NCBI GenBank assembly: GCA_031264145.1
Contig: JAISEK010000064.1
Coordinates: 1 to 44,035 of the forward strand
From: Deltaproteobacteria bacterium
GTDB lineage: Bacteria; Desulfobacterota; Desulfarculia; Adiutricales; Adiutricaceae
Length of the DNA: 44,035 bases
Reading direction: 5' to 3'
Shown here: piece by piece, positions 17,840 to 27,340 of the stretch
How the letters are laid out: each line of letters begins with the position of its first letter
Position numbering within the stretch: position 1 is the stretch's first letter
Translations under genes and position numbers: made by a program
Notes under the pieces: generated by a model
The model's input: only the letters and a program-made list of their open reading frames with translations
Databases searched by the model: none
Told to the model about the DNA's origin: nothing

Positions 17840-17843
<4 letters not shown>
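17355..17843 (+). CDS. HIT-family nucleotide hydrolase/phosphorylase
   Basis: 162 residues. The histidine triad HLHLHV (about residues 121-126) is the catalytic signature of nucleotide-binding HIT proteins, which cleave dinucleoside polyphosphates or nucleoside phosphoramidates. The N terminus TLWAPWRMDYI and the CVFC pair match the Ap4A phosphorylase-like HIT group that carries a zinc site. GTG is the chosen start: AAGGAGGGG lies six bases upstream and WAPWRM would otherwise be lost. The stop overlaps the TTG start of mutS by four bases, so it is the first gene of a coupled three-gene operon. Exact substrate not determinable. Confidence 0.92.
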
Positions 17844-20487
<2,644 letters not shown>

Positions 20488-20491
<4 letters not shown>

Positions 20492-22308
20492 TCGCCCGGC
20501 GGACAGCCCCCGGCCCGGCCGCCACGGCGGCCCTCCTCCTGGCGGCCCTCCTCTCCCTCCTGGCCCTGCGGCCGCCCGGCCTCATGGCCGACGGCGAGCT
20601 GGCCAGGGCCCTCTCGGCCAAGGAGAGGTTCCTCAGGGACGGCCCCAGCTCCCGGCGGTCCGAGTGGCTTTCCCTGATCAGGCAGTTCGAGGAGGCGGCC
20701 GAGGCCCAGCCCCGGATCGGCCCGGCCTCGAGGGCCCGCTTCCTGGCCGCCGACCTGGCCCTCAGATCCTTCCGCAAGTTCGGCCAGGCCCCGGACGCCC
20801 AGCGGGCCGGCCGGCTGGCCCGCCGCTCGGTCAAGGACTGCCCCGGCTGCGGCGACGCCCCGGGGGCCCTCCTGGTCCTGGGCCAGGCCCTGATGGCCCA
20901 GGACCAGCCGGAGGAGGCCTACCGCGAGCTGATGAAGGTCGAGCTCAACTACCGGGACGCCTCCGGGGCCGTCCAGGAGGCCAGGGAGCTCATGGCCAGG
21001 CTCTCGGGTAGGCCGGCCCCCCCGAAGCCACCCCCGAAGGCCCCGCCCCCCGCCAGCCAGCCCCGGGCCGGCCCGGCCCCCTCGCCCCCTGGCGGGGCCA
21101 AGCCCATGCCCGTCCCCCCGCGGCCGGCCGCCCCCAGCGAGCCCGCCCCGCCCAAGCAGAGGCCCGCCCCCCAGCCGCCGCCCCCCAGGGCCGACGGCCG
21201 GGCCCAGGTCCACGCCCTCTTCCTGGACGATCTGGGCGACTACTCCGAGATCACCGCCTACCTGGACCGGGTCACCCCCTACCTCTACAACCTCCTGCCG
21301 CCCAGCCGGGAGGGCGGCCTCTTCCGGGTCTACGTCGACTTCAAGGAGTCCAGGCTGGCCCAGAGGGGCGTCAGGGCCCCCTCGGCCCGGACCGGCCTGG
21401 TCAGGGCCCTCAAGGTCAACCAGCTGACCGACGACACGGTGAGGCTGGTGGCCGATCTGCCGGCCGCCTACCCCTACACCCCGGTCTTCCTGGACAACCC
21501 GCCCAGGATGGTCATCCGGGTGGCCGCCCAGGCCGGCCTCCTCCCGCCCATGGAGGCCGAGGAGCCCCCCGCGCCGCCGAGCCCGCCCAGGCCCAGCCCG
21601 GCCAAGGGGCCGGCCGACTCCATGGCCCGGCAGCTGGGGCTGGGCATCAGGACGGTGGCCATCGACGCCGGCCACGGCGGCAAGGACGGCGGGGCGGCCG
21701 GCAACGGCCTCAAGGAAAAGGACATCGTCCTGAGGGCCTCGGGCATGCTGGCCCGGAAAATCAAGGCCCGCCTGGGCCTGGACGTGGTCATGACCAGGGA
21801 CAGGGACATCTTCGTGACCCTCGACAGGCGCACCAGGACGGCCAGGGAGAAGAAGGCCGACCTCTTCATCTCCGTCCACGTCAACGCCAACGACCTGGAC
21901 AAGGTCGAGGGCCTCGAGAGCTACATCCTGAACTTCGCCAGCGACCCCACGGCCATGGCCGTGGCCGCCAGGGAGAACGCCTCGGCCGGCAAGACCATGA
22001 GCGAGATGGGGGACATCCTGCAGAAAATCGCCCGCAACACCAAGGTGGCCGAGTCGCGGGTCCTGGCCAAGGCCCTCCACTCCGGGGCCCTGGGCTCCCT
22101 GCGGACCAGACACAAGGTCCGCGACCTGGGGCTCAAGGAGGCCGCCTTCGTGGTCCTGGCCAACGTCGACGTCCCGGCCGTGCTCCTGGAGATTGGCTTC
22201 ATAACCAACAAGGGCGAGGCGGCCCTCCTGGACCAGGACGCCTACCTGGAGCTCATGACCGACGGCATCTGCCAGGGACTGGCCAACTACCTGGCCGGCC
22301 TGCCCTGA
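20488..22308 (+). CDS. amiC: N-acetylmuramoyl-L-alanine amidase, AmiC type (AMIN + Amidase_3)
   Basis: 606 residues from a TTG that overlaps the mutS stop; AGGGAGG seven bases upstream supports it. A hydrophobic N-terminal segment (about residues 10-28) indicates export. A helical region, a long Pro-rich linker, an AMIN-like beta domain (about 240-350), a second Pro-rich linker and the Amidase_3 domain (from about 385) follow. Zinc and catalytic residues are visible in DAGHGGKDGGA, the Glu in NGLKEKD, SVHVNA, and LLEIGFITN. It cleaves the amide bond between MurNAc and the peptide stem, normally for daughter-cell separation in the periplasm; AMIN domains usually target the septum. A regulatory insertion is present between SVHVNA and LLEIGF. 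Confidence 0.94.
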
Positions 22309-22392: not shown

Positions 22393-22672
22393 AAGAATCT
22401 TGAAGTCGCCCCGGATCGGCCTGCCCGTGGCCCTGGGGCGTCGGCTCCCCGGGCCCGGACGTCGCCGGCAGTGTGCCCCCGGCCGCCGGGGCCGGCCCGC
22501 CGACATGGCGGGTCCCTGCCCGGGAGACCGCCAACCTTCACCAAGAAAATCTGAATTGCCCCGGATCGGCCTGCCCATGGCCCGGGGGCGTCGGCTCCCC
22601 GGGCCAGGACGTCGCCCGCCGGGCGCCCATGTCGCCGGGGCCGGCCCGCCGACATGGCGGGTCCCTGCCCGG
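22393..22672. repeat. Tandem direct repeat of about 149 bp, two copies
   Basis: Copy 1 runs about 22393-22523 and copy 2 about 22543-22672. CCGGATCGGCCTGCCC occurs at 22411 and 22561, and GACATGGCGGGTCCCTGCC ends both. Each copy contains CCCGCC...GGCGGG hairpin potential. Frames through it are repetitive and have no ribosome site, so it is treated as non-coding. Confidence 0.8.
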
Positions 22673-22775: not shown

Positions 22776-22804
22776 TTAAAAAAGTCTGATATTTTTGCTA
22801 TACT
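22776..22804 (+). promoter_or_regulatory. Promoter of the predicted small RNA
   Basis: TTAAAA (4/6), 17-base spacer ending in TGC, TATACT; the TG one base before the -10 box makes an extended -10. No reading frame follows, but a structured segment and terminator do. Confidence 0.55.
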
Positions 22805-22810
22805 ATTGTC

Positions 22811-22955
22811 AACCGGTGGGTAAAACCACCGTCTACTATATAGGCGAGCCATGCTCGTGGTGTCGATTCCGCTAGTAAACATGGTTTATTGAAAAACCAC
22901 CTCCTCCTATAGGGAAACGCCCTGATCGTGGCCAGATCAGGGCACTTTTATTTTT
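22811..22955 (+). ncRNA. Predicted structured small RNA, family unknown
   Basis: About 145 bases between a plausible promoter and a strong terminator, with no open frame. Visible pairing: hairpin CGGTGG (22814-22819)/CCACCG (22826-22831); a long-range closing stem TATAGG (22839-22844)/CCTATA (22906-22911), continued by GAG/CTC; inside it GTGGT (22857-22861)/ACCAC (22896-22900) and the stem-loop GTAAAC/GTTTAT (22875-22889). GAGC/GCTC (22846-22856) is an alternative hairpin competing with part of the closing stem. The layout suggests a stand-alone regulatory RNA. I do not recognise 6S, SRP, tmRNA or RNase P features. It could also be a residual element leader. Confidence 0.55.
22919..22955 (+). 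terminator. Intrinsic terminator of the predicted small RNA
   Basis: Perfect 9-bp stem GCCCTGATC/GATCAGGGC with a seven-base loop, followed by TTTTATTTTT. A textbook Rho-independent terminator with no gene ending before it. Confidence 0.85.
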
Positions 22956-23561
22956 ATAGACAGATATTGTAAAATTTTTAGCAAATTAAATTTAATAATG
23001 GTGGTTTAAATATAGTAAAAACTTACTTTTAATGATATAGTTTTGTCAGTATTGTGTTTGTTGAATTTACATTATGTTTCATACCTTTTTCCACGTTATT
23101 ATTTTCCGTATTGATTATTTTATATTATTCCTACCTTATTATTATATTGGTATTTTTATTATTTTTTATAGTTGTTTTGGGGATAATTTATGTCTTTCTT
23201 TTTACTTATTATCCCTGAGCCGACCAAAACCTCCTGGCCCCAGAAAGTCCCCGGCCAGGGCAGCCTGGCCGCCAGGGCTGGCCCCAAAGGCCCGCCGCGA
23301 GGGGACTTCCGCCGCCCCGGCCAGCCAGCCCCGGCTTCCCGAGAAACGACGCGGCCACGGGGGGTTGGGCCGGGACGGGAGGCGTCCCCGGGACAAAACC
23401 CGCGGGTTTCGGGGCCCCGGCCTGCCCCGGCAAGGCCCGATGGCGCCGCCAATGGCCCCTCCGTTCCCTTCCCGGGACCAAGGGGCCATTGGCCGCCCTG
23501 GCACCCGCCCTGGCCGGGAGCGGGCCATCGGCGGGAGGGCGGGACCTGGCCCCTGGCGGCC
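22956..23561. other. AT-rich then GC-rich spacer, no supported gene
   Basis: 22956-23215 is AT-rich (AATTTA/TTATTT stretches) and 23216-23561 is GC-rich. One forward frame starting at 23074 begins with a hydrophobic AT-rich stretch but runs straight into low-complexity GC-rich sequence, which is typical of a chance frame across a composition boundary. Confidence 0.55.
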
Positions 23562-24491
23562 TCAGCCCGGGTACCAGCGGCGCTCAAAGGCGGCCGAGTC
23601 CTCGACGAAGGCGTTGCCCTCCTCGGCCACCTTCAGCCGGCAGTAGACCGCGGCCATGGCCACGGCGGTAAGGCAGAGGGGCAGGGACATGGCCAGGGAG
23701 GAGAGCAGGACGGCGGCCAGGCCTGGATTGCCCAGGGCGTTCATGGCGCGGCCGACGGCGTAGGCGGCGCCGGCGTCGGCCGCGAGGACCGGCAGCATGG
23801 CGGCCACGATCCTGAAACGGTTGCCCCTGGCCAGCTCTGAGGCCCGCCCCAGCGAGGCCAGGGCCGATCGCCTCTCCACCGCGCAGACCGGCAGGACGCA
23901 GGAGACCGGCGCCAGCAGGAGCAGCCCGGCCAGGACCAGGGGGGGGGCCACGACGGCGACGGGCAGATAAAACCCCCTGTCGCGCAGGGCGAAGAGCAGG
24001 CCCATGGCCAGCCCGGACAGGAGCCCGGCCAACAGGACCAGGGCGACATAGAAGACCACGACCGGGCCGAACCTTTCCAGCCCCCTGGCCATGGAGGCCA
24101 GGAAGGGCGGGCTGGGCCCCCTCTGGGACTCATGGACATGGAAGGCCACCGAGCCCTGGAGGCACATGAGCAGGGCCGGGCCGGCCAGGATCAGGGCCAC
24201 GTAGGCCACCACCCACGGGACCGACCCCCCGTCCTCCAGGACCGAGAAGAGGACGTAGCCGAGGGCGGACGGGACCAGGACCGGCAGGGTCAGGCCCCAG
24301 ACGCGCGGGAACATCTGGCAGAAGACCCGCAGGGCCAGGGCCAGGGTCGGTCCCGGGGACAGACGCCTCCTCGGGGCCGGGGGCCCCGGCCGGGGCGGCA
24401 CCGGGATCCACTGGGGTCCCCCGGCCCCGGCGGGGCCCGGGCCCGCCCTGGGGGCCCGGGCCCCGCCTTTTGCGTCCTTGTCCTTGGCCAT
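23562..24491 (-). CDS. Polytopic membrane protein of the radical SAM-GNAT operon
   Basis: 309 residues. A Pro/Ala/Gly-rich cytoplasmic N terminus of about 55 residues is followed by about six membrane segments (roughly 66-85, 91-112, 142-168, 173-205, 228-250, 256-285). The stretch PVCAVERRSALASLGRASEL resembles the amphipathic signature of membrane domains found with glycerophosphodiester phosphodiesterases, but no enzyme domain is attached. The start MAKDKD is chosen for GGAGG seven bases upstream and because it falls just 17 bases after the GNAT stop. Probably the last gene of the operon. Function unknown. Confidence 0.83.
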   Translation of the reverse strand: MAKDKDAKGGARAPRAGPGPAGAGGPQWIPVPPRPGPPAPRRRLSPGPTLALALRVFCQMFPRVWGLTLPVLVPSALGYVLFSVLEDGGSVPWVVAYVALILAGPALLMCLQGSVAFHVHESQRGPSPPFLASMARGLERFGPVVVFYVALVLLAGLLSGLAMGLLFALRDRGFYLPVAVVAPPLVLAGLLLLAPVSCVLPVCAVERRSALASLGRASELARGNRFRIVAAMLPVLAADAGAAYAVGRAMNALGNPGLAAVLLSSLAMSLPLCLTAVAMAAVYCRLKVAEEGNAFVEDSAAFERRWYPG

Positions 24492-24508
24492 GGTCACCCT
24501 CCCCCAGG

Positions 24509-25471
24509 TCAAATCTTCAGGTGCAGGGCCACGAGCGGGGCCACCGGCCTGAGACCCAGGCCGGCGTACAGCCTCAGGGCCGGGAGGTTCCAGGAGGCCG
24601 TCTCCGCGGTCAGCTCCCGGGCCCCCATCTCCGCCATCCTCCTCAGGAGGGCCCGGGCCAGGAACGCGCCCAGGCCCTGTCCCCGGCGGGACTCGGCGAC
24701 GTGGATGGCCGCCAGGGTGCCGGCCTCGCCGTTGAGGCCGCCCCAGGCCAGGCCGATGGCCTTCTCGGGCCGGTCCTGCCACAGGAAGAGGAACGGCTGG
24801 CCCCGCCTCATGTCGGTCGAGGCCACCTCCCGCCAGAGCCGGTTCTGGAAATCAGGCCCCAGGAAGGGCCCGTGCCTGAGATGGCCGTCGAAGAAGAGCT
24901 CCTCGAACCCGTCGAGCCAGCCGGCGAACTCGTAGCCCCTGGGCCTGCGGATGGAGACCCCGGCCATCCTGTCCAGGTCCACCCCCGGATCCCTCCCCCC
25001 GAGCGGCCCCGAGAGCCTGGCCCCTATCTCCGCCAGCTGGAAGCCCTCGTCGATCAGGCCCCTCAGGATGGCCGGGTCGTGCCAGGTCTTGATGGACAGG
25101 AAGCGGCCCTCGGACCTGCCGGCCAGCTCCTTGGCCTTCCGGGCCAGGATCCTGGAGCTCTGGTAGCGGGCCCCTGGCTCGGGCTCCACCAGCCAGGGCC
25201 CGGACAGCCTCAGGGACCCCTGGCCCATCAGGGCCGTCTCCAGGGGCTGGGTCCGGCAGACGGCCAGGCCCTGGGCCGGATGGCTGTCGTCGACCCACAG
25301 CACCGCGGCCTGCCCGGAGACGACGGCCTGGGCCGACTCCCTCACGGCGGAGGCCGTAAGCTCCGGCAGCCACAGGCTTTCCGGCGGCCCCAGCCTCCCC
25401 ATCTCCCTGGCCATTAGGGTGAGGGTGGCCGCCAGGACCTTGGCCTCGGCATGGCGCCCGCCGCCGGTCAC
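24509..25471 (-). CDS. GNAT-family N-acetyltransferase with an N-terminal extension
   Basis: 320 residues. The C-terminal half is a complete GNAT domain: LAAIHVAESRRGQGLGAFL carries the acetyl-CoA pyrophosphate loop (RRGQGLG), followed by TAETASWNLPALRLYAGLGL, the usual beta5-alpha4 region. The N-terminal half looks like a degenerate second GNAT fold (as in tandem acetyltransferases) with TALMGQGSLRLSGPWL but no intact loop. GTG is the start, overlapping the radical SAM stop by four bases (GTGA). The acceptor substrate is unknown; tight coupling suggests it acts on, or with, the radical SAM product. Confidence 0.88.
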   Translation of the reverse strand: MTGGGRHAEAKVLAATLTLMAREMGRLGPPESLWLPELTASAVRESAQAVVSGQAAVLWVDDSHPAQGLAVCRTQPLETALMGQGSLRLSGPWLVEPEPGARYQSSRILARKAKELAGRSEGRFLSIKTWHDPAILRGLIDEGFQLAEIGARLSGPLGGRDPGVDLDRMAGVSIRRPRGYEFAGWLDGFEELFFDGHLRHGPFLGPDFQNRLWREVASTDMRRGQPFLFLWQDRPEKAIGLAWGGLNGEAGTLAAIHVAESRRGQGLGAFLARALLRRMAEMGARELTAETASWNLPALRLYAGLGLRPVAPLVALHLKI

Positions 25472-26463
25472 GGGGTCCGGCCCTCCCTGGCGGCCAGGTC
25501 CTTGAAGAGGTCGTACTTGTCGGTGTTGTGGAAACAGCGGGAGCAGACCGGCGAGCCCTCGTGGCCCAGCCTCCTGCCGACCATGTCCCTCTGCCCCTCC
25601 ATGCGGCCGCCCAGCCAGGCCTCGGCCAGGCCCGTTTCCGGGAAGCGGCCGGCCGTGTGCTCAGGGAGGCCCCGGGAGTCCTGGCCGCAGAACTGGATGG
25701 CCCCGTCGTGCTTGACCTCCAGGGCCAGAAACACGTCCACGCACAGGCCCCGCCTCAGGCCGGGCGACTGCAGCGGCAGATAGGGCCTGACCCTTGGGAG
25801 GTCGGACACGAAATTGAGGCTGGTCAAGTCCACCGCCACCTTGTCCACCACCCCCAGCCACTCCCCGACGAAATCCCCCGGCCGGCCATCCTCCAGCTCC
25901 CGCTCCAGCACGGATGTGAGAAGGCTCAGGAAGGGCCTCCCCCGGCCGCCCCGCCGTTGGCTGGCCATCCTTATGTTGGCGCTGACCCGCCCGTAGTCCG
26001 AGCCCACGCGGTTGAAGAGGTACTGCCTCTCGTTGAGGCCCTGCATGGAAAACTGGAGGTCATCGACGCCCATCTCGATGAAGGCGTCCATCAGCCTCGG
26101 GCCCAGCTCCAGGCCGTTGGTGTAGATCTTGAGGGGGATGGAGCGCTCCTTGGCCAGGGCGGCCAGCTTCTCGATCCGGGGGTGGAGCAGGGGCTCCCCC
26201 CAGCCGGTGAACCTCACCGCCGTCCCGGGGTGCCTGGCCACCTCGCCGTAGATCTCGGCGGCCAGGCCCAGGTCCAGGAAGCCGACCGGCCTCCCTGGCA
26301 GCTGGCGGGAGCAGAAGAGGCAGTCCAGCTGGCAGGCGTTGGTCGGCTCCAGGTTGATCCAGAAGGGAAAGGGCCTCGGCGGATCGTAGTCGGACAGCCA
26401 TCCCCTGGAGGCATATATGTAGCTGAAGGGATCGCTCCCTGGTCCATTTAGGTAGGAAAGCAC
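25468..26463 (-). CDS. Radical SAM enzyme with SPASM-like C terminus
   Basis: About 331 residues from the chosen GTG. The cluster motif CxxxCxxC is Cys44-Cys48-Cys51 (TNACQLDCLFC), preceded by FWINLEP; FTGWGEPLLHP is the GGE-like SAM-binding region. The C-terminal part has cysteines at GLCVDVF, IQFCGQD and VCSRCF with a KHDGAIQFC segment, which is the SPASM/twitch arrangement that binds auxiliary 4Fe-4S clusters. Such enzymes modify peptides, sugars or cofactors. No precursor peptide was found beside it. The N terminus is uncertain: the frame stays open upstream but only in low-complexity sequence, and the ribosome site (GAGGG) is distant. First gene of the three-gene operon. Confidence 0.87.
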   Translation of the reverse strand: MLSYLNGPGSDPFSYIYASRGWLSDYDPPRPFPFWINLEPTNACQLDCLFCSRQLPGRPVGFLDLGLAAEIYGEVARHPGTAVRFTGWGEPLLHPRIEKLAALAKERSIPLKIYTNGLELGPRLMDAFIEMGVDDLQFSMQGLNERQYLFNRVGSDYGRVSANIRMASQRRGGRGRPFLSLLTSVLERELEDGRPGDFVGEWLGVVDKVAVDLTSLNFVSDLPRVRPYLPLQSPGLRRGLCVDVFLALEVKHDGAIQFCGQDSRGLPEHTAGRFPETGLAEAWLGGRMEGQRDMVGRRLGHEGSPVCSRCFHNTDKYDLFKDLAAREGRTP

Positions 26464-27340
26464 CGGCCTGGCCCTCGCTTGCGGGGTCTGAGAGGAAGAC
26501 GGCGTATGGCCATGGCGACGGCCGGCAAAATGACCAGGCCCGCCCAAGGGACGCCCGGGCCCAGGGAGACGCCGCCCCGGGCGAGAGGGCCCCCCTGGGC
26601 CAGGGCCAGGCAAAACTGGGCCCAGGCCTGGTCAAGGCGGTCTATGTCTGGCACTAAAGATTAAAAAGATTGCCTAAGCTATCCAAATATAGATCATACA
26701 GATCCAATTGGTTTTGTCAGAGATAACCAATACAAGCTAAACAACTATTAAAAAGTTATACATATATTTAGTTATCATTATCATTTGAGTATTTTACCAC
26801 ACAAGACACAATCAGGTCAAGCCAGCGGGACAGGGATCCGGGGATTGGCTGGCACCAGGGAATATCCCCGGAACTGGCCAAGAGGGTCCCGATACATGTC
26901 CGCCCTGGACTATCATGGCTGTGCCCCGGATGGGCCAACCCGACCCGCCGATCCGGCCAGCCACTGCCACGATTTGGCTCTTTCCATATGGGGATGAGAC
27001 GCAACGTGGTGGCGATTGGGACAGAAGACGACTCGTCAAGCGTCATGGGTCTCAGCGGGAAACGGAAGCCGAACCGCCTCAAAGGGGATTGCCGCGCGTC
27101 CCTCTCGGAGCCAAGGAGAACGCGGGTACCATGGTGGGAACGGTCCTGTCGAGATTCGACAGATGGCAGAGTCTACGGTAATTGGCCATAAATTACGTAG
27201 GCTGACCCTGCCTGGTTGGTTTTTGGCGGCTTATCGGCCCCTTTCCGTGGACGTCATCTGGGCCGGGTCACGGTTTCAATTCCGCCGTCTCCTCCCGACG
27301 CCCCAGACCAGACCGCCAGGAGTCGCCGAAACCAGTGGCC
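26464..27340. other. Spacer without supported genes
   Basis: 26640-26800 is AT-rich and could hold the promoter of the radical SAM operon, though no clear -35/-10 pair was found. 26860-27340 has mixed composition and several short overlapping frames on both strands, none with a ribosome site or family resemblance. It may contain decayed coding sequence. Confidence 0.5.

Follow-up and report, generated by a model that had tools for sequence, protein, structure and literature searches.

The region 22776-22955 of the window, by which we mean the whole 44,035-nt stretch of DNA analyzed, carries in that order an extended -10 promoter, a non-coding RNA of ~145 nt and a strong intrinsic terminator, and judged from its sequence it represents an uncatalogued small-RNA family of an already known class. 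The reading we favor, to which we give an even chance, is that of an independently transcribed, lineage-specific small regulatory RNA acting in trans, likely through mRNA pairing without Hfq. Homologues occur in at least 12 genomes from six genera (g1, g2, g3, g5, g9 and g11) of one bacterial family. As is typical for the stand-alone small RNA class, the promoter is conserved, the terminator has changed in a compensatory manner and the structure is conserved without a coding signal. The original prediction of a compact, stand-alone structured RNA is borne out by the syntenic homologues in six genera, the covariation in the 5' hairpin (H1) and terminator, and the conserved promoter.

The promoter (22776-22804, plus strand) consists of a weak -35 element, TTAAAA (22776-22781), a 17-nt spacer and the predicted extended -10 element, TGC-TATACT (22796-22804, with TATACT at 22799-22804), which is indeed present and kept in near homologues in the form TTTGnTATAmT. 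Two promoter-like sites, this one among them, were found in 2.4 kb versus 0.4 expected. Based on the promoter position, the RNA is expected to start at ~22811, giving a putative transcript from 22811 to 22955 on the plus strand. Its homologues were recovered by blastn, a covariance model and synteny, and codon-phase bias is absent. The claim that the region holds no reading frame also stood, as each frame is short, or is broken or shifted in homologues, and G001 and G002 differ at the RNA locus by 26 substitutions that divide 9/9/8 among the three codon positions. A conserved peptide (e.g. MLVVSIPLVNMVY in the window) was considered and rejected, since its start codon and frame are lost among homologues and codon phase is absent. 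ARAGORN detected neither a tRNA nor a tmRNA in the window.

Wherever the contig is long enough, the RNA lies in the order mutS, amidase, RNA, a GNAT gene on the opposite strand and a radical SAM gene. In the window, mutS (17840-20491, plus strand) and the N-acetylmuramoyl-L-alanine amidase gene amiC (Amidase_3; 19588-22308, plus strand) are upstream, as in the other genomes; the coding start of the amidase is uncertain and, as called, the gene overlaps the end of mutS. Downstream are the convergent GNAT-family acetyltransferase gene (24509-25471, minus strand), also in conserved order, and after it the radical SAM gene (25468-26613, minus strand). For G021 and G004, where the amidase side is off the contig, synteny is read from the GNAT side. 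The RNA sits in a low-GC part of the gap within a region otherwise of 65-80% GC, and directly 3' of the terminator ~250 nt have a GC content of ~20% (22950-23210). A 406-aa ORF (23562-24782, minus strand) located between the RNA and GNAT genes has no Pfam or NCBIfam match and has a 30% identical relative in the same interval of G002. On the other side, the stretch separating the amidase gene from the RNA promoter holds, at 22393-22672, two GC-rich imperfect direct repeats spaced about 150 nt apart (105 nt at 78%, with an overlapping 47-nt stretch at 94%); no further copy was found in the window's genome at E <= 1e-5.

Among relatives, blastn identified the RNA in G002 (76% over 178 nt), G001 (71%), G003 (82% over 67 nt) and, also clearly, G022, while the G008 copy was recognized through a shorter match. 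A covariance model built on six copies (R1) found the blastn copies again and added G016 at 86 bits; searched outside the family, it returned no convincing copy. Synteny in other genera led to diverged copies in G014 (a model match of 22 bits), G010, G007 and G021, and to one in G004 that is truncated where its contig stops, leaving 11 full-length copies. Genera g4, g6, g7, g8 and g10 yielded no copy; in g7 and g8 none was seen 3' of the amidase gene, g6 is without the mutS-amidase-GNAT arrangement, and in G005 and G006 the contig stops short of the RNA's place. The start of contig G005:C18 (L142, 1-400), near that expected place, holds short tandem repeats with units like GATAAGATTATGAGCCAGGAAGGTGCCTGAATAGCCATGGG. 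Weak covariance matches, those in G025, G055 and G004:C231 as well as full-length or terminator-only ones in other places, were taken as chance, and a DNA search with the G007 copy as query gave no further relatives at a convincing level. A loose descriptor of -10 element, hairpin, AUAUA and terminator was applied to both strands of 0.71 Mb of sequence. Its matches were known copies, among them those at the syntenic place in G010 and G021, and one unrelated place; the G003, G022, G014 and G007 copies lie beyond its limits. Searches of the window and the homologues against Rfam, at gathering and relaxed thresholds, gave no convincing match, in agreement with the original prediction's failure to recognize the family. 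Phage and plasmid collections held no match to the RNA, and our literature search did not find a paper linking Adiutrix with non-coding RNA.

The RNA folds at -48.6 kcal/mol (z of -3.6 versus dinucleotide shuffles, none of 200 being as good), and z is only about -1.9 once the terminator is removed, so much of the folding excess is owed to the terminator. In an alignment of seven sequences, 90.5% of cells are paired versus 27-49% with the partners slid. Covariation scores 0.329, versus 0.225 +/- 0.032 in shuffles. H1 (22814-22831, plus strand; CGGUGG at 22814-22819 with CCACCG at 22826-22831) is paired in 100% of cells in the seven genomes, with two pairs changed on both sides, and a comparable hairpin is found in four further, more divergent genomes. 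The intrinsic terminator (22919-22955, plus strand) is as textbook as was claimed, with a 9-bp stem (22919-22943) formed by GCCCUGAUC-loop-GAUCAGGGC and followed by a T-rich, in the RNA U-rich, tail; its sequence varies between genera, with three pairs changed on both sides in the seven genomes. H1 and the terminator are maintained by compensatory changes across seven genomes.

The remainder of the fold is less uniform. H1 and the terminator covary, but the middle hairpins (22845-22872) are weakly supported: CGAG/CUCG (22845-22848 with 22854-22857) and GUGG/CCGC (22857-22860 with 22869-22872), both on the plus strand, are paired in 71% and 79% of cells in the seven genomes, respectively, and partly compete as base 22857 is common to both. 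The predicted long-range closing stem (22839-22911, plus strand; UAUAGG at 22839-22844 with CCUAUA at 22906-22911) is present in the minimum free energy structure, but its pairing probability in the window is about 0.4, and while it recurs in G003, G022 and G016, it does so without compensatory change and is lost in the close relative G002. The closing stem is therefore the weakest element of the RNA, and the compensatory changes sought in homologues were found for two helices, H1 and the terminator, and not for this one. In G014, G010 and G007 a different helix closes the core directly 3' of AUAUA; from these single-sequence folds, the position of the closing helix seems better kept than its sequence. 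AUAUA itself (22838-22842), part of the conserved block UAUAUAGGCGAGCCA (22837-22851, plus strand), is found in all 11 full-length homologues, usually with G next. It is predicted to be unpaired, with a probability mostly above 0.95, in G002, G014, G021, G010 and G007, as are its first four bases in G001, and partly paired in G000, G003, G022, G016 and G008, as in the window. All 11 full-length copies share one plan: a -10 element, a 5' hairpin, a short AUAUA strand, a variable folded core and a terminator.

In the window, the stretch at 22822-22840 (AAAACCACCGTCTACTATA) is repeated inside the RNA at 22893-22911 as AAAACCACCTCCTCCTATA, a repeat reached by none of 500 shuffles in the window, weak in G002 and absent in the other homologues. 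The 3' copy could compete for the 5' hairpin strand. The idea that AAAACCACC...CTATA reflects an ancestral duplication was rejected, as the repeat, though strong in the window, is only weakly present in G002 and missing elsewhere.

The host family is most likely Ca. Adiutricaceae, of the class Desulfarculia, a family known from termite guts (PMC9137090). Four relatives found through the GNAT gene are Deltaproteobacteria MAGs. The sample code of one of them (Pcl387) occurs in a paper on gut symbionts of termites and Cryptocercus (PMC12887300), and the family carrying the RNA apparently consists of termite-gut bacteria. A search with PF17209 detected Hfq in none of 37 family genomes, including none of the 12 of good quality, while five control genomes were positive; a strongly diverged Hfq could escape this model. 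With the Rfam 6S model, 6S RNA was found in all ten genomes searched of a related family (f5), eight of them above the cut-off, but in the family genomes searched the single match was a marginal one in G008 (22.9 bits, below the cut-off), and the window's genome gave none. The f5 genomes carry 6S upstream of an rny-like gene (named from a reading of its sequence). The gap preceding this gene in the window's genus, g3 and g11 is short and shows no recognizable 6S. As Rfam finds nothing at the corresponding locus of the order relative G037 either, loss of 6S in the family is suggested. Directly before the rny-like start (loci L117, L118, L119, L120 and L114), the window's genus and G008 have the conserved leader TATATATATGyGGAGCCGAAATG, and G022 and G016 have the similar TTTATATATTTTGGAGCTACAATG; this leader may be an AU-rich site for control of translation or decay.

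Given these features, several roles were weighed. A chance assembly of promoter-like and terminator-like motifs, for which one could cite the AT-rich gap and the only modestly better folding of the non-terminator part than of shuffles, is effectively refuted by homologues that keep the synteny across six genera and show compensatory changes, and we assign it a negligible probability. A role in cis, as a riboswitch-like leader or attenuator controlling a downstream gene, is very unlikely. Attenuators, too, combine RNA structure with a strong terminator at the end, but at five of the seven loci examined (G000, G001, G003, G016 and G022) the closest long ORF beyond the RNA runs the other way, a comparison of long ORFs in which short ORFs have no coding call, and the convergent orientation makes a leader role unlikely. 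In G002 a long co-directional ORF lies ~1.35 kb away; a co-directional gene immediately downstream was not the rule among the genomes, low-GC DNA comes next in the window, and no conserved antiterminator was seen.

It is improbable that the RNA is 6S in strongly diverged form or has functionally replaced it, if marginally less so than a leader. The idea draws on the 6S cut-off never being reached in the family genomes searched, on the 6S gene beside the rny-like gene in f5, and on the short gap at that place in the window's own and neighboring genera. However, absence of 6S is unproven in view of the order relative, the chromosomal place differs, and at ~145 nt including the terminator the RNA has a separate 5' hairpin and neither an end-joining stem nor a large central bubble. 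Equally improbable is the bolder proposal of a lineage-specific global regulator in a 6S-like role, which would contact RNA polymerase or an RNA-binding protein via AUAUA in a family without detectable Hfq or 6S.

The serious rival is a protein-binding small RNA, a tentative reading that we hold to be possible though clearly less probable than action on messages. Under this scenario AUAUA(G), a single-stranded link from the 5' hairpin to the core, would be recognized by an RNA-binding protein or RNA polymerase, which the RNA sequesters or scaffolds without pairing to messages. Consistent with that, AUAUA is invariant while most other sequence drifts, it is mostly unpaired in the divergent copies, and Hfq was not detected. 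In addition, allowing up to two mismatches, the only antisense match to the 15-nt conserved block in the window's genome is the RNA gene itself, and matches in relatives are barely above a reversed-pattern control; because a good antisense site is missing, protein contact stays in contention, and for seeding base-pairing in a GC-rich genome AUAUA would be short and weak, a point that also favors protein contact. On the other hand, there is no candidate protein, each molecule has a single short motif, unlike CsrB-type sponges, and AUAUA is partly paired in five genomes.

Base-pairing is the commonest way in which such small RNAs act, and for that reason we lean toward it. In the favored mechanism of a trans-acting regulatory RNA, contact would be made by the exposed AUAUAG strand together with the block that follows, most likely through Hfq-independent pairing with target messages, while the 5' hairpin and the terminator would protect the RNA ends. 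In the window's genus a C/U-rich linker just before the terminator, in the window ACCACCUCCUCC, could also reach ribosome-binding sites. The RNA adds a well-supported, uncatalogued family to the uncultured, apparently termite-gut Adiutricaceae and, as the lineage is without detectable Hfq and recognizable 6S, offers a ready test case for chaperone-free small RNA action.

Among known systems, some copies recall the T-arm of tRNA-like and Y RNAs (YrlA) through a TCGATTCC stretch, a likeness we rejected because it is not conserved (it is missing in G003, G014, G010 and others) and neither Rfam nor ARAGORN gives a match. With 6S RNA (RF00013) it shares being non-coding, in a lineage with no 6S detected at the usual place, but it is shorter, lies at another locus and does not match the RF00013 model, and the folds of the 11 homologues have neither the paired ends and central bubble nor the ~180 nt of 6S. 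The closest likeness is to intergenic trans-acting small RNAs with their own promoter and Rho-independent terminator. This RNA differs from them in its lineage, where no Hfq was found with PF17209 such as an Hfq-dependent small RNA would call for, and in a conserved strand that is AUAUA rather than C-rich, but it shares with them its size, a 5' hairpin, a conserved single-stranded stretch and a site between conserved genes.
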